From contig NZ_JACCIU010000001.1 of NCBI RefSeq assembly GCF_019303535.1, positions 992,001 to 1,056,000 on the forward strand: 64,000 nt of DNA. The letters are read 5' to 3'. This DNA comes from Lactobacillus sp. Sy-1 (lineage in GTDB: Bacteria > Bacillota > Bacilli > Lactobacillales > Lactobacillaceae). The notes under the pieces are model-generated. The model was not told the origin of the DNA, made no database searches, and saw nothing but the letters and a program-made list of their open reading frames with translations. Both the position numbers and the translations under genes were made by a program. Shown in pieces: positions 36,615-45,695 of the stretch (position 1 is the stretch's first letter; the number at the start of each line of letters is the position of its first letter).

Positions 36615-38330
36615 GTGTCTTTTGACGGAAGTTTTACCCACTCAATGGTAAAAGAACTAAGTGATTGGCTTAAGGGTGGCCGAATTGCTAAGATTAACCA
36701 ACCCTATCCAAATGAAATTATCATCACAATCAGATCGAACCGGAACAGCTATCCGGTATTGTTATCAGCCAACCCTAGTTATGCGCGGGCACAGGTAACC
36801 AACATCCCCTACGTCAATCCCCCGGTCCCCACTAATTTCACCATGACGCTTCGAAAGTACCTCAGCGGAAGTGTATTGAATTCCATCACTCAGTCTGACA
36901 ACGACCGGGTAATGCAGTTTCACTTTACGGTCCGCAATGAAATTGGCGATTTAAAATCAATGGTCTTAATCATTGAAATCATGGCGCGCCATAGTAACGT
37001 GATCTTAGTGGACGGTTCCGACCGCAGAATTATCGATGCCATTAAACGTATTGGCCCCGATAAAAGTAGATACCGGACGGTTCTTCCCGGAACGGAATAC
37101 ATTAATCCACCGAAGCAGGACTTAGTGGATCCGTTTACATTTACCGATGAAGCCCGGTTAGCACAAATCATCCGGGAGTTTCCGAATCAGGATGTCCTCT
37201 CGGAAAAACTCCGCCAAACCTTTCAAGGATTGGGTAAGGATACCGCTACTCAATTAGCCCGCTTTTTGCACCAATCGGGCTCATCAATGGAGTTATTTAA
37301 GCAGTTCTTTGAACAATTTAACACCCCCACGCCGACCTTGATTGACCGTGATAAGCCGATCTTTTTACCCTTTGATCCAATTGGAATTACCGATTCATTA
37401 AAGCACTATGATTCGCTAAGTGCGCTATTGGACGATTACTACCAAACCAAGGCGCAAAGGGATCGGGTCCGCGAACAAGGGGGCGTTTTGATTAAGGTTA
37501 CTAGAAACGAGCTCAAGAAAAACCGGACCAAGTTAAAAAAGCTAACTAAAACACTTGATGATACTAAGTTTGCGGATGACTATCGCATTAAGGGGGAAAT
37601 TTTAACGACCTATTTGAATCAAGTCCAACACGGAGCTAAACAAGTCGAACTCCCTAACTTCTATGATGATAACCACCCGCTTAAAATCAGCTTATTACCG
37701 GACAAGACCCCTTCTCAAAACGCCCAGTGGTACTTCAAGCAGTACCAAAAAAAGAAGAATGCGATTCAATTCGTTAGTCATCAAATTGAACTTACGAACG
37801 CGGAGGTAGAATACTTTGAGGGGGTTTTATCGCAGATTGAATTAGCAGACCCTAGCAACCTTGCTGATATTAAGGCTGAATTACAACAAGGCGGCTATCT
37901 AAGGGATCACGAACACCAAAGTAAAAAGAAACCAAGTAGACGCCAAATTAGCCAACCAGAACAGTTTAAGGCTAGTGATGGCACTGTTATCCTAGTTGGG
38001 AAAAACAACCTGCAAAATGACCGTTTGACCACTAAAATGGCTGATAAGCGTGATACCTGGTTGCACACCCAAAAAATCCACGGATCCCACGTTATCATTC
38101 GCTCGTTTGCCCCCAGTGAACAAACGATTGAAGAAGCCGCCATGCTAGCGGCTTACTTCTCTAAAGGTCGTGACTCTGCGAACGTGCCGGTTGATTACGT
38201 TCAAGTCCGGCACGTTAAAAAGCCGAACGGAACTAAGCCAGGATTTGTTATCTATGAAGGGCAAAATACCATGTATGTAACCCCAAATAAACAAGTTGTG
38301 GATCAACTAAGGGCGAATAATAATCAATAA
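36615..38330 (+). CDS. rqcH: Ribosome quality control protein RqcH (NFACT family)
   Basis: Binds stalled 50S-nascent chain complexes and recruits tRNA-Ala to add C-terminal alanine tails; the same family was earlier described as fibronectin-binding protein. The 571-residue protein has NFACT-N (to about 175), a coiled-coil middle domain (about 280-430) and NFACT-R with DTWLHTQKIHGSHVIIRS. The functionally important Asp-Arg pair is at residues 97-98, as in Bacillus subtilis. It starts with GTG at 36615 after AAGTAAGTGATTGAAAA; the ribosome site is weak. A shared terminator separates it from carB. Confidence 0.93.
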   Translation: MSFDGSFTHSMVKELSDWLKGGRIAKINQPYPNEIIITIRSNRNSYPVLLSANPSYARAQVTNIPYVNPPVPTNFTMTLRKYLSGSVLNSITQSDNDRVMQFHFTVRNEIGDLKSMVLIIEIMARHSNVILVDGSDRRIIDAIKRIGPDKSRYRTVLPGTEYINPPKQDLVDPFTFTDEARLAQIIREFPNQDVLSEKLRQTFQGLGKDTATQLARFLHQSGSSMELFKQFFEQFNTPTPTLIDRDKPIFLPFDPIGITDSLKHYDSLSALLDDYYQTKAQRDRVREQGGVLIKVTRNELKKNRTKLKKLTKTLDDTKFADDYRIKGEILTTYLNQVQHGAKQVELPNFYDDNHPLKISLLPDKTPSQNAQWYFKQYQKKKNAIQFVSHQIELTNAEVEYFEGVLSQIELADPSNLADIKAELQQGGYLRDHEHQSKKKPSRRQISQPEQFKASDGTVILVGKNNLQNDRLTTKMADKRDTWLHTQKIHGSHVIIRSFAPSEQTIEEAAMLAAYFSKGRDSANVPVDYVQVRHVKKPNGTKPGFVIYEGQNTMYVTPNKQVVDQLRANNNQ

Positions 38331-38332
38331 AT

Positions 38333-38379
38333 AAAAGAGTGGCAGCTATGAAATATTCTTCATAGTCGTCACTCTTTTA
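38333..38379. terminator. Bidirectional terminator between rqcH and carB
   Basis: AAAAGAGTG and CACTCTTTT form the outer stem with an inner CTATGAA/TTCATAG stem. A-rich and T-rich flanks serve both strands; the 3' side overlaps the end of carB. Confidence 0.85.
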
Positions 38380-40881
38380 TTCATCTTCAGGGGGATCTAG
38401 GTTGATTTCTGCCCCCACCTCTTGATTCGTGGACCCGACTTCTTGGTCCACCTTTAAGTCGATAAATGGAAATTTAGGTTTCATCTCTGCGAACGGGATG
38501 AACGAAAGATTCTTGAAGGTTTTGTTCAAGTCTTCGGTCGTTAGTTGATTGGTGTACAACTTAACTAGCATTTTGATCCAATTAACGTTCGAAATCCGGT
38601 TCAAAAAAATCGTTTCAATAATTCGAATCGGTCGAATCCCCACGACCTTGAACAGGCCCTGGTCTTCTAACACTAGGATTTGTACTAGTCCTTTCCAATA
38701 GGAGCTGCTGATCAATTCCTTAGCATCTGTAATTAGCCCGGCTAACTTATCATCATCAATCGCATATGGAAAAGCCAGGTGGGAAATGTCCTTTAGTTCG
38801 TGGTTCTTCCCAGACGCTAGCTTGACGGTATTAATAAACCGACTTTCATCCTTAGTGACAAAAAAGTTCATCGCAAAACTTGTTTTTTGCGGCAACGTGA
38901 CCCCGGTTTCTTGATCAGGTGGCAGCACCACCACCTTTAGGTCTGGATACTGCCGTAACTGCCGAACTAGGTAGTGCCGATTTCCCGGCACCACAACGAT
39001 AGCTGGTTTTTCAATTTCAGCAATGTTTAAAATGGCCCCAATCTGAATTGGTTCAATATACTGTTTGTCACTCAACTGCGGACTGAGCGATACTGAATTG
39101 GGGTTATTATTCATGATAATCGTTTTGTACCCCAACCGGTGCATTTGAATTAGGACCTCCGAAGTGTAGTAATCAGCAGCCGAATTTGGGCCTAACCGGT
39201 TACCGCCTCGCCCAATCACTAATGCCGAACGGTCTGACAACTGGTGGGATTCATTTTCCCGTTCAAAACTACTATAAAACGAACGAATTGAATGGGCTTC
39301 TTCCCCTGCCGATGGTTCAATCATTTTATAGGTTGGCACGCTGTTTTTCAACTTGCCTAAGTAGCGCACCTTGTCTAAATCGGTTTGCCAAGCGGCTGCT
39401 AACATACCATCCCCAAACCCCCTCCGGTGGGCCGTTCGAAGGGATTCTTCGGTTAGCGGCTCTTTTACAACGAGGTTTTCAACGGCCAGTAATTTTTGCA
39501 ACCGTTTAAAGTAAAACGGATCGATTTTGGTTAGTTCGGAAAGGTCTTCGACCGGATAGTTACGCCGTAAGGCCTCAATCAATACTAAAATTCGGCTAGC
39601 CTTGGGATGAATCAACTGGCTGATCATTTCATCATCGCTGAGTTCTTCCATGTTCGGTAAGACATCCCGTGGATTGAACTGTGAACTACGCATTGCTTTT
39701 AAAATGGCCTCTTCAACGGTCCGCCCAATTCCTACCGCCGAACCAATCGATTTCATTGATTGGTCTAAATGCTGATCAACGGTTTTGAGGCTGTCGAACG
39801 GCCAGAGAGGAATCCGAATTAAGATGCGGTCCATCAACGGTTCCATAAAGGTAGTCAGCTTAGCATAGGCATGGGGTAAGTGAATATCGGCAAAACCATT
39901 ACCAAGGACTAATTGAGCCGTAACGTAGTTGAGTGGGTACCCAGTAGCCAGGGTTGCTAGCGCGAAACCGCGGTTATAGTTTGGAGTGACCTTAGTAACA
40001 AAGTAATCATTGTTATCCGGATTCAACGCGAAACTAACCTCACAAGCTCCGATGATCTCTAATTGTTCCATGATGTTGAGCGTTGCCTTTCTAAGCCGCT
40101 GGTAAACCGAATCGGTGATGGTTTGAATTGGGGAAACCGCAATTGAGTCTCCAGAGTGAATTCCAATGGCATCAATATCTTCAACCCCATTAATAATCAA
40201 CTTAGTTCCGTTCGGATCCCTAATGCCAATGATACTTAACTCTTTGTACCCCACAATGCTTTTTTCAATCACACAGCGATTCAACGTGGAATCAGTAAAA
40301 GATTCACTAAGCGCGATTTCCAAGTCATCAAAACTATTACAAATCGTCCGCCGGCTATTGATTGATGATAAGACCGGCTTTACGATGATTGGAAAGCCGA
40401 CCTGTCTGACCAGGTCAAAGGCTTCAGCATTTGAATGAACGATCGTCGATGAGATGATTGGTTCTTGGACTTCCTTCATTAGTTGGCTGAAACGCAATGG
40501 ATTGCCAATTAACTTCAGGGCCGCCTTGGAGAGTCCTAAGAGCTCAACGGAGTACTTAGCAAGGATCTTCATTTCAACTAGCTTTTGGCAAATTTTAATC
40601 GCATTCGGGCCTCCAAGGGTAGGCAGAATCGCATCGGGCCCCTCATTTTGAATAATTGCAACTACGTTATCTAAGGTTACCGCTTCAATATAAGCACTAG
40701 CTGGTTGAATTTCGGTCGTCGCAATCGAATATGGATTATCATCGATCACAATACTCTTCACCCCGACCCGTTTAAAACTAACGATGGTCTGGAAAACAGC
40801 GGCATCTAACTCGTTTTCCTGCCCCACTTTGGAAGGACCACCGCCGATTATTAGGACTTTATTGATGTTTTGATTAATCAC
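38377..40881 (-). CDS. carB: Degenerate carbamoyl-phosphate synthase large subunit
   Basis: Homologue of CarB, 834 residues against the usual 1,060 or so, in one uninterrupted frame. N-terminal synthetase half: LIIGGGPSKVGQENELDA, PDAILPTLGG, GIHSGDS are recognisable, but the EDR motif reads GNP, the Gly-rich ATP loop after IVKP is replaced by VLSSINSR, the Gln of the metal site reads Ser (CEVSFALNP), and the E-x-NPR-x-S-R box reads KVTPNYNRG. The C-terminal half keeps GRGGNRLGPNSAADYY, but most of its second ATP-grasp fold and the usual allosteric domain are missing or unrecognisable. GTG 40881 is chosen: AGGAGG stands ten bases before it. Catalysis is very unlikely. Confidence 0.85.
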   Translation of the reverse strand: MINQNINKVLIIGGGPSKVGQENELDAAVFQTIVSFKRVGVKSIVIDDNPYSIATTEIQPASAYIEAVTLDNVVAIIQNEGPDAILPTLGGPNAIKICQKLVEMKILAKYSVELLGLSKAALKLIGNPLRFSQLMKEVQEPIISSTIVHSNAEAFDLVRQVGFPIIVKPVLSSINSRRTICNSFDDLEIALSESFTDSTLNRCVIEKSIVGYKELSIIGIRDPNGTKLIINGVEDIDAIGIHSGDSIAVSPIQTITDSVYQRLRKATLNIMEQLEIIGACEVSFALNPDNNDYFVTKVTPNYNRGFALATLATGYPLNYVTAQLVLGNGFADIHLPHAYAKLTTFMEPLMDRILIRIPLWPFDSLKTVDQHLDQSMKSIGSAVGIGRTVEEAILKAMRSSQFNPRDVLPNMEELSDDEMISQLIHPKASRILVLIEALRRNYPVEDLSELTKIDPFYFKRLQKLLAVENLVVKEPLTEESLRTAHRRGFGDGMLAAAWQTDLDKVRYLGKLKNSVPTYKMIEPSAGEEAHSIRSFYSSFERENESHQLSDRSALVIGRGGNRLGPNSAADYYTSEVLIQMHRLGYKTIIMNNNPNSVSLSPQLSDKQYIEPIQIGAILNIAEIEKPAIVVVPGNRHYLVRQLRQYPDLKVVVLPPDQETGVTLPQKTSFAMNFFVTKDESRFINTVKLASGKNHELKDISHLAFPYAIDDDKLAGLITDAKELISSSYWKGLVQILVLEDQGLFKVVGIRPIRIIETIFLNRISNVNWIKMLVKLYTNQLTTEDLNKTFKNLSFIPFAEMKPKFPFIDLKVDQEVGSTNQEVGAEINLDPPEDE

Positions 40882-40888
40882 GTTGTGG

Positions 40889-41962
40889 TTACCTCCTTTG
40901 TGAGCCAATATTTTCTAAAAATTCATCAAAGATATCGGATGCAATTGTGGGTCCCGGCTCACCATCTGGCGAAAATTGAACTGAAAAGGCGGGATAATCA
41001 CGGTGCCGTAATCCTTGAACGGTCCCGTTGTAAAGATCAATATAGGTCGTAATCAACGTGTTGCGGTCGATTGAATCGTAATCAACGGCATACCCCTGTG
41101 CCTGGGAAACATAAATTACCTGGTTCGTAATGATCTTTCTTACAGGATGGTTGCTTCCGTGGTGTTCGGTCTCTAATTTATAAACCTTCGCGTTGTTCGC
41201 GATTGCGAATAACTCGTGGCCAAGACCAATTGCTAGTAGTGGGAACTGGGTCTGCAATGATTGAATCGTTTTAATGATCGACTTAGGCAGGTCGGCAGGG
41301 TTCCCGGGACCGGTTGAAATCACAATTCCATCCGGATCCAAACTTAAGATGCGTTCTACCGAAGTATCCCAAGGCACCACCACTACATTGCAATCACGTT
41401 CATCTAGGCGCCTTAAGATCCCCTGCTTTAAGCCAAAGTCAATTACGATGATATTAAAGCCATTGCCCGGATTAGGGTATGGCTTGGGAGTGGCGACCTG
41501 TGATACCTGCTGGTTGGTTAAAACGGTGGCGTTCAACTGGTCAAACGCATGCTCATCATCAACGTCTACGATGCTGGCCTTCATGGTTCCCTTTTTCGTG
41601 ATCCGATGGGCTAGTTCTCTAGTATCGATCCCCTCAATTCCCGGGATTTCGTGTTGTTTTAAGAATGTATCCAATGATTGCTTGTGTTGATGATTGAGGG
41701 TGGTATCAGAGTATTCACGGGTGATGACCCCCTTGATACTGGTAACGATTGATTCATAGCTTTTATGGTTAATCCCTACGTTTCCGATGGTGGGTTGGGT
41801 AAACACAATGATTTGATTATGATAAATTGGATTAGTAATGGATTCTTGGTACCCCATCATATTTGAATTAATGATTATTTCACCGGTGGTGGTGGCCAAT
41901 GCACCAAATGCTTCGCCGGGATATGATGAGCCATCCTCTAATATTAAATAACGTTTTGTCAT
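40889..41962 (-). CDS. carA: Degenerate carbamoyl-phosphate synthase small subunit
   Basis: Homologue of CarA with normal length (357 residues). The N-terminal domain RYLILEDGSSYPGEAFGA and GYQESITNP, and the amidotransferase fold (STGPGNPADL, HHGSNHPV) are clear. All three glutaminase residues are changed: the Cys of the GICLGHQ box is Gly246 (AIGLGHE), and the His and Glu of the xHPE box are Ser331 and Asp333 (QFSPDG). It therefore cannot hydrolyse glutamine by the known mechanism. Start ATG 41962 follows GGGAG by eight bases. carB begins seven bases after its stop and pyrR ends 26 bases before it. Confidence 0.88.
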   Translation of the reverse strand: MTKRYLILEDGSSYPGEAFGALATTTGEIIINSNMMGYQESITNPIYHNQIIVFTQPTIGNVGINHKSYESIVTSIKGVITREYSDTTLNHQHKQSLDTFLKQHEIPGIEGIDTRELAHRITKKGTMKASIVDVDDEHAFDQLNATVLTNQQVSQVATPKPYPNPGNGFNIIVIDFGLKQGILRRLDERDCNVVVVPWDTSVERILSLDPDGIVISTGPGNPADLPKSIIKTIQSLQTQFPLLAIGLGHELFAIANNAKVYKLETEHHGSNHPVRKIITNQVIYVSQAQGYAVDYDSIDRNTLITTYIDLYNGTVQGLRHRDYPAFSVQFSPDGEPGPTIASDIFDEFLENIGSQRR

Positions 41963-41988
41963 TTTAATGCTCCCATCCAATTTCAGCC

Positions 41989-42525
41989 CTATTTGTTGAC
42001 GATTTCAACAGCGTCACGCTTATCGATTTCTTGAACTGAAACTTGAATTTTTTCGTTCTGGGCACTGGGGATGTTCTTGCCAACGAAGTCAGCTCGAATT
42101 GGTAACTCCCGATGGCCCCGGTCAACTAGGACTGCCAAACGAATACTATTAGGACGGCCCAGTTCTGAAATGGCGCTTAGGGCCGCTTTAATGGTCCGGC
42201 CAGTATACAATACGTCGTCCACTAAGATGACGTTTTTGCCTTCAACTGAGACCCGATCGCCGCTAGCAACCACAGTCGGAGTCTCCTTTGCACTATCATG
42301 TTCAATATCATCACGATACTTAGTGATATCTAACGCCCCCACCGGAACTTCAACGTTTTCTAGTTGTTGGAGTCGATTGGCAATTCGCTTTGCTAGGTAG
42401 ATTCCGCGGGTCTTGATTCCGACGATCACAAGGTCTTCGATGCCCTTATTCTTTTCAATGATTTCATAGGTTATTCTTGTTAATGCACGTTGCATTGCCA
42501 TTTTATCGATAATTACTTTTGCCAT
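41989..42525 (-). CDS. pyrR: Pyrimidine regulator / uracil phosphoribosyltransferase PyrR
   Basis: Bifunctional RNA-binding attenuator protein and uracil phosphoribosyltransferase, 178 residues. The PRPP-binding loop [18 protein letters not shown] is intact, with [12 protein letters not shown] and [22 protein letters not shown] also conserved. The start at 42525 follows GGAAGGA; the same frame runs open upstream through the leader but has no earlier plausible start. It is the first gene of pyrR-carA-carB and has a promoter and attenuator of its own. Confidence 0.94.
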
Positions 42526-42546
42526 TTTATCGTCCTTCCTTTTATT

Positions 42547-42583
42547 AAAAAAGGCTGCTAATTCGATTACTCGAACAGCAACC
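42547..42583 (-). terminator. Attenuator terminator in the pyrR leader
   Basis: On the reverse strand GGTTGCT (42583-42577) pairs with AGCAGCC (42559-42553), with an inner TTCGA/TCGAA stem, followed by six T. Just upstream, AACCA can pair with the TGGTT that overlaps the 5' arm, giving a mutually exclusive fold. The usual PyrR-binding sequence was not recognised. Confidence 0.7.
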
Positions 42584-42609
42584 ATTTTTCCAGTGGTTAA
42601 TATAATATC

Positions 42610-42638
42610 AGAATATTTTAAATTGCCTGGTTTGTCAA
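42610..42638 (-). promoter_or_regulatory. Promoter of pyrR-carA-carB
   Basis: On the reverse strand TTGACA (42638-42633), a 17-base spacer and TATTCT (42615-42610), just after the rluD stop. The leader to pyrR is only about 78 bases. Confidence 0.7.
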
Positions 42639-42640
42639 TG

Positions 42641-43543
42641 TTAATGCTGACGATGACGCAATTGAGTAAGCGTTTTTTCAAAGATTGTGGGCAGTGGAGC
42701 TGAAAATAACAATTGTTCCCCACTTCTAGGGTGCTTAAAGCCTAATACAGCCGCATGGAGAAATTGACCGTTTCCGGCAATTGTCTTTCGGGGGCCGTAC
42801 AGTGGATCCCCCACTAGCGGGTGCCCAATCGATTTCATGTGAACTCGAATTTGGTGGGTCCGACCGGTTTCTAATTGGCATTCCACTAGCGTGTAGTTCG
42901 CAAACCTTTCCAACACCCGGTAGTGAGTTACCGCATGCCGACCATCAGCAACAATCGCCTGTTTCTTTCGATCCTTTTTATCGCGCCCAATTGGCGCATC
43001 CACCGTCCCGCGGTCATCCTTGATCACTCCGTGCACCAATGCGATATACTTGCGAACGTTGGTCTTATCCTTGAGCTGTTTAGAAAGTGATTCATGTGCT
43101 AAGTTATTTTTCGCAACCATTAAGAGCCCGGAAGTATCCTTATCAATTCGGTGGACGATTCCCGGACGAAGCGTCCCGTTAATGTTGGACAACGGCGTAT
43201 GGTACAACAATGCGTTGACTAACGTGTGGTCTGGGTGGCCCGGAGCGGGATGAACGACCATCCCCTGGGGCTTATTCACCACTAACACGTCATCATCTTC
43301 ATAGACGATGGCTAGTGGGATGGCTTCAGCCACTAGGTCTAATTTTTTAGGCTCTGGAATCGTAATTTGAATTCGATCGCCCGGTTTGACTTCATATTTG
43401 GGTTTGACGGGCGCATCATTAACTAAGATTTGGGACTCCTTAATTAACTCCTTGGCCCGCGAACGACTGATCTGGGGTTCTAGTTCTGCGCAGACTTTGT
43501 CGATCCGACCGGACTGGTTAGTAATTTGAAACTGACTATCCAT
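42641..43543 (-). CDS. rluD: 23S rRNA pseudouridine synthase, RluD family
   Basis: Modifies uridines in 23S rRNA. The 300-residue protein has an S4-like RNA-binding domain at the N-terminus ([27 protein letters not shown]) and the RluA/RluD catalytic domain with [16 protein letters not shown] carrying the catalytic Asp, plus [20 protein letters not shown]. The start codon overlaps the lspA stop by one base (TAATG). lspA-rluD-pyrR is the common order in lactobacilli. Confidence 0.94.
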
Positions 43544-44016
43544 TATGATTTAGCACTTTCTAACTTTTCGCTTCGCCAGAGCATGATCAACAACATGATG
43601 ACCCCAAACGTTAAACATGCGTCCGCAAAGTTAAACACGAAGTTTAAAAACGGGAGGTTCAAATCAACTTGAAACATGTCAACAACGTAGCCATGGATTC
43701 CTCGATCAATAAAGTTACCGATTGTTCCCGCAAGTAAGAATACAATTGTAAATGAGTAGCCCCGGCTTTTTCTGAATTTAATCAGGTAATACCCCATTAC
43801 TAACACGGCAGCTACTGAGATGATTAAAAAGAAGTTCATCTTGCCCTGCAGCATACTCCATGCTGCACCATGGTTATGGAGGTTGGTCAACGATAATACT
43901 CCTGGAATCAGTGTGTCACTTTGGCCCTGCGTCATTGTCGCTGAGACCCAGGCCTTAATTCCTTGATCGGCACCGATTAATACGATCAAGAGGCCTATCA
44001 TGTATATAAAAGGCAT
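43543..44016 (-). CDS. lspA: Lipoprotein signal peptidase
   Basis: Inner-membrane aspartyl peptidase that removes signal peptides from lipoproteins, 157 residues with four membrane helices. The catalytic Asp residues are in GNFIDRG and NFADACLT, and NHGAAWSM is the conserved N-terminal block. Coupled to rluD. It follows fhs by 17 bases, so the group ebsA-fhs-lspA-rluD may be read together. Confidence 0.95.
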   Translation of the reverse strand: MPFIYMIGLLIVLIGADQGIKAWVSATMTQGQSDTLIPGVLSLTNLHNHGAAWSMLQGKMNFFLIISVAAVLVMGYYLIKFRKSRGYSFTIVFLLAGTIGNFIDRGIHGYVVDMFQVDLNLPFLNFVFNFADACLTFGVIMLLIMLWRSEKLESAKS

Positions 44017-44033
44017 TCGAAACGTCCCTTCGT

Positions 44034-45695
44034 TTAGAATAATCCGGTAATTTCACCGTTATCCTTGATATCCATATCCAGTGCTGCTGGATGACTAGGT
44101 AGCCCTGGCATTGTTAATACGTTTCCAGTTAAGGCAACGATAAACCCAGCCCCTAGTTTCACTTGAAATTCACGAATGTGGATCTTAAAGTTGGTTGGTG
44201 CTCCATGAATGGAGGCGTCATCAGTAAGTGAATACTGAGTCTTAGCCATACATACTGGGAGCTTATCCCAACCATTTTGGACAATTTGTTTGAGTTGTTT
44301 TTGGGCTTTACTGGAAAGCTCAATTCCATTGCCCCCGTAAATTTCAGTCACAATTTTATTGATTTTAGTTTCAATTGAATCTTCAACAGAGTAAAGCGGG
44401 TTAAACTGAGTTTCCTGATCAGCAGCAAGCACTACTAACTTTGCTAGGTCAACTGCGCCCTTACCACCTTGTGCCCATTCATAACAAGTAACGCTAGGGA
44501 TTGCAAAGTTATCATCAACGTACTGCTTTAATTGGTTGATTTCTGCTTCGGTATCACTAGCAAAGTTATTAATGGCAACAATTACTTTTTTACCGTAACG
44601 ACTCATTGCCTTAATGTGGCGGCCTAAGTTAGCAGAACCCTTTGCCAATGCAGCTAGATCCTCGGTTGCTAAATCGTTCTTATCAGCTCCACCGTTAAGC
44701 TTTAATGCCCGAATTGTTGCAACGATTACTACTACATCAGGGGCTTTGCCTAACCGTGGGGCAACGATGTCCATGAACTTTTCGCCCCCTAAGTCAGAAC
44801 CAAATCCTGATTCGGTAACGGTATAATCAGCAGTATTAAGGCCCGCCTTAGTCGCAATAATACTATTACAACCATGGGCGATGTTGGCGAACGGGCCACC
44901 GTGGATGTATGCAGGGGTGTGTTCAATCGTTTGCACTAGGTTGGGTTTGATGGCATCCTTTAATAGCAACGTTAATGCTCCTTGAACCTTTAAATCACGA
45001 ACGTAAACGGGTTTACGATCATAAGTGTACCCAATTAAAATCTTACTGATTCGTTCCTTGAGGTCTTGAATATTGCGACTCAGGCACAGAATGGCCATCA
45101 ATTCACTAGCAACCGTAATGTCAAAGCCATCTTCACGTGGGACACCGGAAGTCCGGCCCCCTAATCCGATTACGGTGTGCCGTAGTTCACGGTCGTTAAT
45201 GTCTAAGACCCGTTTCCATGTGATCTGCCGAGGGTCAATGTTTAATTGGTTTCCGTGGTGAATGTGATTATCAATTAATGCTGAAAGGGTATCATGGGCT
45301 TCGGTAAGGGCATGGAAGTCACCAGTAAAGTGTAGATTGATGTCTTCCATTGGAATTACTTGTGAGTATCCCCCACCGGTAGCGCCCCCCTTCATGCCCA
45401 TTACGGGACCTAGGGATGGTTCTCTCAACGCAAGGGCCGTCTTATAATTTAATTCGCTTAAGGCGTCCCCTAGCCCAACTGCCATGGTTGTTTTTCCTTC
45501 CCCAGCCGCAGTTGGGTTAATGGAAGTTACTAAAACTAACTTTCCCTTGGTTGATTGATCAGCGACCGGTAACGTAATCTTGGCCTTGTAGTGTCCGTAA
45601 GGCTCGATTTGTTGGTCGGTTAAATTTAACTTACTAGCAATTTTACCAATTGGTAATAATTGGCTTTCTTGAGAAATTTCAATATCTGTTTTCAA
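44034..45695 (-). CDS. fhs: Formate-tetrahydrofolate ligase
   Basis: Makes 10-formyl-tetrahydrofolate from formate, ATP and tetrahydrofolate, supplying one-carbon units for purine and fMet synthesis. About 553 residues; the P-loop [39 protein letters not shown] and the [17 protein letters not shown] tail are characteristic. TTG 45695 is the likely start: GGGGTGG stands seven bases upstream, while the GTG at 45710 lies inside that site. Confidence 0.95.

Follow-up and report, generated by a model that had tools for sequence, protein, structure and literature searches.

Among carbamoyl-phosphate synthases (CPS), human CPS1 is an ammonia-dependent CPS-I in which the glutaminase cysteine is replaced, and pseudoenzymes can be retained as regulators. 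The PyrR2 protein of L. plantarum reportedly responds to inorganic carbon, an observation said to be that of Arsene-Ploetze et al. in 2006, and we know of no explanation of the mechanism by which it does so. PMC3582564 describes PyrR2 of Lactobacillus plantarum as an inorganic-carbon-responsive regulator of the pyr operon, and in PMC7911632 lp_1782 is given as pyrR2 and lp_2704 as pyrR1. The window analyzed here, a stretch of 64,000 nucleotides from Lactobacillus sp. Sy-1, carries homologues of both CPS subunits directly behind a pyrR gene; they are designated carA* and carB*, the asterisk denoting catalytically dead copies. Judged from its sequence, the pair is a conserved pseudoenzyme system and not a decaying gene, probably selected for a non-catalytic role. 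Its most likely function would be tied to PyrR, as synteny, co-occurrence and evolutionary rates suggest.

The two genes are single uninterrupted frames separated by few bases, without frameshift as the original prediction had it, and carB* has a strong Shine-Dalgarno sequence. Chance or sequencing error can be ruled out, because intact orthologues exist in many genomes. Aligned with E. coli CarAB and with this genome's own working CarAB (E. coli numbering is used for the aligned positions), CarA* has Gly246 at the position of Cys269 and Ser331 at that of His353, just as had been proposed. Asp333, which had been taken for the lost Glu partner, is not a loss, because working lactobacillal CarA, including that of the same genome, also carries Asp at the position of Glu355. 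The Cys-His-Glu/Asp triad of the glutaminase is thus absent from CarA*, with Gly246 and Ser331 as the departures and Asp333 normal; there are further changes S47I, Q273E and H312Q. In CarB* every one of E127/D128/R129, G175/G176, Q285, E299, N301 and R303 is altered, which bears out the reported loss of the EDR sequence, the Gly-rich loop, the Gln and the Glu/Asn ligands. The Gln loss holds for CarB* of the window but is not a general trait, as 75% of 20 short-type proteins retain Q285. CarB* does not have the ATP and metal ligands in both ATP-grasp halves. Its second ATP-grasp fold is indeed shortened, leaving 834 amino acids, and in 20 short forms this region has an occupancy of 0.62. The original prediction overlooked the absence of the C-terminal allosteric MGS domain, the occupancy of which is 0.01 in 20 short forms.

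These replacements recur in the relatives. Cys269 is changed to Gly in all 27 dead CarA rows of one alignment, in all 20 dead-type loci of a wider contig scan and in five of the six full-length dead cases. Among 20 short-type proteins new residues are fixed at the old catalytic positions (C269G 100%, Q273E 95%, E299K 90%), and E215, G241, H243, D246 and S247 are retained in at least 90%. The change at Cys269 alone is no proof of a dead pair, because two Bacillaceae CarA with a working-type CarB share it. These are the CarA of Allobacillus halotolerans (L093, 5872-7008, + strand) and Bacillus piscicola (L100), which have Cys269→Gly and His353→Gln. The full-length CarB beside each retains every one of the 21 residues checked, which points to a possible ammonia-dependent CPS in these bacteria. 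Such a combination of a catalytic large subunit and a dead glutaminase is not what is found in our pair. In curated libraries carA* exceeds the small-subunit cut-offs (TIGR01368, 364.7 versus 307.35 bits; NF009475, 431.8 versus 221) and passes as a CPS small subunit, so that pathway predictions counting it as a working CPS in lactic acid bacteria risk error. The score of carB* lies under the TIGR01369 cut-off (524.2 versus 1027 bits), with positions 3-635 of the 1052 in the profile matched.

A model of CarB* built from a 20-sequence alignment of the window and related loci is confident, with a predicted local distance difference test score (pLDDT) of 87.2 and a predicted template modelling score (pTM) of 0.89. 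Its best match is E. coli CarB (1a9x_A; Z 43.9, root-mean-square deviation 2.8, 814 residues aligned). Residues 2-834 of the model align to 3-926 of the E. coli chain only, in agreement with Foldseek, and ~110 residues of this E. coli segment, mostly of the second ATP-grasp fold, have no counterpart. The CPS large-subunit fold is thus predicted to be retained. The model of CarA* is only fair (pLDDT 74.5, pTM 0.56), and no claim is built upon it.

How general is the pair? A search of 60 relatives, with examination of gene neighbourhoods, covered 37 Lactobacillaceae genomes of 36 genera, our own included. A dead carAB is found at the old pyr locus, which has the order lspA-rluD-pyrR-carA-carB-rqcH, in 31 of the 37. 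The CarB is shortened in 25, with frames of 791-901 amino acids in 23, 659 in G010 and 643 in G023, and in six it is full length with lost ligands (G011, G015, G018, G022, G028 and G033). A working pyr operon occupies the rluD-pyrR locus in another five (G012, G013, G026, G031 and G032). In the remaining genome, G030, there is no dead-type pair among the matches listed and no close pyrR; its pyr-operon carB is split into open reading frames (ORFs) of 853 and 207 amino acids (L052, 7382-10579, + strand). In G022 (L242, 2903-6067, - strand) the checked residues of the first half of CarB are kept and those of the second half lost, so that this full-length dead protein appears to be an intermediate state. 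The CarA of G033 keeps the Cys and not His353 or Glu355. The row of G023 (L061, 7072-12022, - strand) comprises pyrR, an ORF of 435 amino acids that is probably pyrP, dead carA and the short carB, and is another stage of reduction. The carA* gene is also present in G003 and in L070. Beyond the family, in the same order (family f4), dead carA and a carB of 577-579 amino acids lie near pyrR in all three sampled genomes, with a pyrB-like ORF intervening in two. In the wider contig scan the dead type accounted for 20 of the best 80 of 589 confirmed loci, from Levilactobacillus, Secundilactobacillus, Lactiplantibacillus, Periweissella, Furfurilactobacillus, Weissella, Limosilactobacillus, Fructobacillus, Pediococcus acidilactici and metagenome bins.

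The pair combines loss of catalytic residues with a ratio of non-synonymous to synonymous substitution rates (dN/dS, Nei-Gojobori) far below 1. Within Lactiplantibacillus we took 20 of 21 genomes (G076 was left out) and used pairs only at 0.05<dS<1.5, most pairs being synonymously saturated. In these 20 genomes pyrR2, carA* (360 amino acids in 20/20) and carB* (851-855 amino acids) are uninterrupted and their order is constant; an uninterrupted short carB* is found in all 21. For carA* the median dN/dS is 0.011, from 27 usable pairs out of 190, and for carB* it is 0.008 (4/190); the working CarA and CarB of the same genomes have medians of 0.019 (16/190) and 0.028 (12/190). Mean amino acid identity is 95.6% in carA* versus 90.2% in working CarA, and 85.6% in carB* versus 90.4% in working CarB. 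Between the window genome and its congener the ratios are 0.020 for carA* and 0.038 for carB*, rough values as dS is >2. G016 and its near relative (L038, L075) give 0.005 and 0.017. Near relatives mostly fall at 0.01-0.04, ratios that are likewise rough because many pairs have dS >1.5 or are saturated, and the highest value, 0.142, is that of carB* between G020 and Periweissella ghanensis. Orthologues in near relatives had been named as the place to look for stops or drift; the frames there are intact and the ratios far from 1, which contradicts local decay or a frame error. Selection for a non-catalytic role, as originally suggested, is well supported at the sequence level by the low dN/dS, the retention in 31 of 37 genomes and the fixed replacements at the catalytic sites (C269G in 27/27; E299K in 90% of 20).

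A normal CarAB and PyrB, for which a check had been advised, are both present in a separate cluster. This pyrB-pyrC-pyrAA-pyrAB-pyrD cluster lies ~75 kb from the dead pair and encodes a CarB of 1057 amino acids and an intact CarA. A Ser/Ala-rich ORF of 1978 amino acids lies upstream of its pyrB, outside the window (L062, 13013-18949, - strand). In 10 of the 31 genomes with the dead pair there is no working full-length CarB among the matches listed; two of these ten are incompletely assembled (G018, 87%, and G029, 91% completeness). In eight (G010, G014, G016, G018, G021, G025, G028 and G034) there is additionally no pyrB above the curated cut-off. The pair's job therefore need not involve carbamoyl phosphate. 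A scaffold was one of the examples of a role given in the original prediction; as a general role, a scaffold for carbamoyl phosphate or for its channelling to aspartate transcarbamoylase (ATCase) is unlikely. Its other example, nucleotide sensing, is unlikely through the usual sites, given the missing MGS domain and the loss of the ATP ligands. PyrR, a connection absent from that prediction, is a better lead than either.

We propose, tentatively and with nearly even confidence, that the pair is a CPS-derived pseudoenzyme complex acting with PyrR. CarA* and CarB* would have arisen from the CPS of an ancestral pyr operon. Catalysis would have passed to another such operon, and the old locus would have dropped pyrB and pyrC and kept carA and carB. 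The retained pair, mostly remaining with pyrR, would have lost its allosteric domain along with the ability to bind ATP and to hydrolyse glutamine. CarA* and CarB* would still form a complex, which may act on PyrR by binding it or by altering its response to ligands. PyrR-controlled attenuation would thereby be tuned, either that of the pyr genes or, where the organism is an auxotroph, that of its pyrimidine transporters. Candidate PyrR boxes (E<=0.001, several under the Rfam gathering score, with <=50 candidates scored per genome) indeed precede transporter-like ORFs in the auxotrophs G014, G016, G025 and G034, ORFs that we take from their sequence type to be uracil permease, NCS1-type and MFS transporters. 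One candidate in G016 has a small enzyme-like ORF between the box and the transporter-like ORF, and one in G034 has no clear gene behind it. G028 has two candidates, and at the same threshold and number scored there were none in G010, G018 or G021.

Of the 25 short-type genomes, 22 have pyrR immediately upstream of the pair and G023 has it there with a single ORF intervening, and all pair-carrying family genomes of at least 90% completeness also have a pyrR match. The pyrR of the window is the only close one in its genome, and its phosphoribosyl pyrophosphate (PRPP) loop and RNA-binding motif are intact; both features are retained in 31 of 32 aligned PyrR rows. The exception is G010 (L060, 9582-10058, - strand), whose PyrR has lost both its PRPP-binding loop and its GIKTRG motif and keeps most of the RNA-binding motif; the dead carAB of G010 is the most diverged pair. 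Evolutionary rates were compared as relative branch rates on a fixed tree of neighbouring genes, with FastTree branch lengths. In the main test (24 of 32 taxa, 45 branches; eight taxa with <2 control genes were dropped) the correlation with pyrR was rho 0.52 for carA* and 0.50 for carB*, versus -0.08 and 0.15 with rluD. Without G010 the values were 0.49 and 0.48 with pyrR, and 0.02 and 0.24 with rluD. Within the 17 taxa that make up the main short clade they were 0.52 and 0.57 with pyrR, and -0.08 for carA* with rluD.

A number of observations weigh against a role with PyrR. Adjacency to pyrR is inherited synteny and is therefore weak by itself. It is also not universal: pyrR is not adjacent to the pair in G003 and G006, where it lies elsewhere, in G028, or at five Limosilactobacillus loci (L078, L081, L083, L085 and L129), where one pyrR was found elsewhere in each of the four genomes searched (L083 was outside the search). 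No pyrR was found in the pair-carrying G018, an assembly that is 87% complete. No PyrR box was found in the window at 37500-44200, so that autoregulation of the locus through such a box was rejected; PyrR boxes do precede pyrR in the relatives G011, G023 and G047. The five genomes with a working CarAB at the locus do without a dead pair, and across genera the first ATP-grasp fold has a mean identity of 0.41 in carB* versus 0.78 in working CarB. The rate correlation is suggestive only. Its P values are naive, and in the main short clade carB*-rluD reaches up to 0.28. With three two-gene control sets, in another 17 taxa, carA*-pyrR was 0.29-0.47 and carB*-pyrR 0.20-0.32, next to 0.30 for carA*-rqcH, 0.23 for carB*-rqcH, 0.14 for carA*-fhs, 0.24 for carB*-fhs and 0.37 for pyrR-rqcH. 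In those sets carB*-pyrR is not distinguished from the controls. A shared relaxation of pyrimidine control could be the source of the correlation.

The same observations lend themselves to another explanation, in which the conserved pseudoenzyme has a role unrelated to PyrR, such as a metabolite- or protein-binding scaffold, and proximity to pyrR is a relic of the ancestral operon. We regard this as possible, if rather unlikely. It would fit the persistence of the pair without an adjacent pyrR in the eight cases above, the lack of a detected pyrR in G018, and the weakness of the rate correlation with some control sets; it sits less well with a main test in which rates track pyrR and not rluD, and with the pyrR match in every sufficiently complete genome that carries the pair. 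That the pair has gained a new catalytic activity seems improbable. The fixed residues C269G, Q273E and E299K, and the retention of E215, G241, H243, D246 and S247, might be so explained, but the metal ligands and Gly-rich loop are lost, the nucleophile is Gly and ATP-grasp 2 is reduced; no other nucleophile or site for a metal came to light, in the course of work that included no systematic search for one. It is a little less probable still that the pair acts on the working CPS by binding or modulating it, through mixed oligomers or feedback, and so tunes the supply of carbamoyl phosphate. In favour of this the oligomerization domain is fairly well kept (identity across genera 0.46, versus 0.55 in working CarB), the CarA N-domain has an identity of 0.59 versus 0.60 in working CarA, and in L. 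plantarum growth phenotypes connected with PyrR2 reportedly depend on CO2. Yet there would be no working CarB to modulate in the 10 of 31 genomes lacking one among the matches listed, eight of them also lacking pyrB above the cut-off, and constraint is strong between G016, one of the eight, and its near relative L075, a genome outside the search. Ordinary decay of a redundant pair, which a working pyr cluster elsewhere in the genome and the many changed sites might have suggested, is scarcely credible in view of a dN/dS of ~0.01 in Lactiplantibacillus, retention in 31/37 genomes and the lack of internal stops among the dead-type matches listed.

If the pair does act with PyrR, its partner in Lactiplantibacillus would be PyrR2. 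Of the two close pyrR genes in the genome of L. plantarum EGD-AQ4 (L072), one belongs to the pyr operon that holds the working CarAB and the other precedes carA*B*; the latter is by elimination pyrR2. The two proteins are 65% identical in this genome, and 63-65% across the three genomes compared. A more specific suggestion, which we consider unlikely as it stands, is that CarA*-CarB* senses inorganic carbon for the pyr regulon, with the remaining carboxyphosphate site (E215, G241-H243, D246-S247) binding bicarbonate or a related ligand and signalling to PyrR2. If true, this would account for the CO2 response of an RNA-binding attenuation protein in Lactobacillus plantarum. The pair is a concrete, testable candidate for inorganic-carbon sensing by PyrR2, and the finding also raises the possible polarity of pyrR2 deletions on the two genes behind.

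What is the origin of the pair? The main trees left out G010 and G047 for their long branches and G030 for its working CarA, and that of CarB was restricted to the first 670 residues. The dead forms of the Lactobacillaceae cluster together (Shimodaira-Hasegawa-like approximate likelihood ratio test, CarA 93, CarB 99), and in both trees they are separate from the working copies that these genomes carry at another site. Since a working operon occupies the same locus in five genera, the most economical account is that catalysis was lost from the native CarAB once its task had passed to a second pyr operon. Several full-length dead forms are basal, and G015, G018 and G028 join the short forms in the CarA tree. 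The full-length forms have lost different catalytic sites, suggesting that the loss may have been stepwise or repeated. In an earlier CarA tree G010 fell among the working CarA, on a very long branch. In the CarA trees the f4 forms (G039 and G054) lie beside streptococci, and the CarB tree nests them within the dead group, at a point where long branches meet; a single origin of all dead forms is therefore not assumed, and those of f4 may have arisen independently.

The features of the locus are collected in Table 1. The names of the rluD-like, lspA-like and rqcH/FbpA-like neighbours are those that we presume from sequence type. The stretch between the ends of carB* and rqcH is probably a terminator shared by the two genes; its matches to miRNA families fall far under their cut-offs.

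Table 1. Features in and around the carA*-carB* locus; coordinates are positions within the window.
Feature	Position	Strand
carA*, small-subunit homologue, dead glutaminase, conserved N-domain, 357 amino acids	40889-41962	-
carB*, shortened large-subunit homologue, 834 amino acids, GTG start	38377-40881	-
carB* Shine-Dalgarno AAAGGAGGTAACCACAACGTG and GTG start, overlapping the end of carA*	40879-40899	-
pyrR, 178 amino acids, immediately upstream of carA*	41989-42525	-
rluD-like gene, conserved upstream neighbour, synteny marker and rate control	42641-43543	-
lspA-like gene, conserved upstream neighbour, synteny marker	43543-44016	-
rqcH/FbpA-like gene, convergent downstream neighbour, synteny marker	36615-38330	+
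Stretch between the ends of convergent carB* and rqcH, weak hairpin-family matches	38325-38387	no strand

In the open-licence literature we recognized neither a description of the carA*B* pair nor any two-subunit pseudoenzyme that derives from CPS and is linked to an attenuation protein that binds RNA. The closest described systems each share part of its character. The PyrR2 system of L. plantarum is linked to it directly in that the dead pair follows the second pyrR in Lactiplantibacillus, and the pair goes unmentioned in the available part of the PMC3582564 account. The ammonia-dependent CPS1 and the putatively ammonia-dependent CPS of L093 and L100 likewise have the glutaminase Cys replaced and the small-subunit part kept, but the large subunit of L093 and L100 has all 21 CarB residues checked, whereas that of our pair is dead too. 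With CarAB itself (E. coli 1a9x; PyrAA-PyrAB) the pair shares sequence kinship, the fold of CarB*, the carA-carB order and a locus beside pyrR, while it lacks the glutaminase nucleophile, the ATP and Mg ligands and the MGS domain, and its second ATP-grasp fold is reduced. Finally, the pair resembles the pseudoenzymes that serve as regulators, in that a conserved fold and lost catalytic residues are found together with purifying selection.

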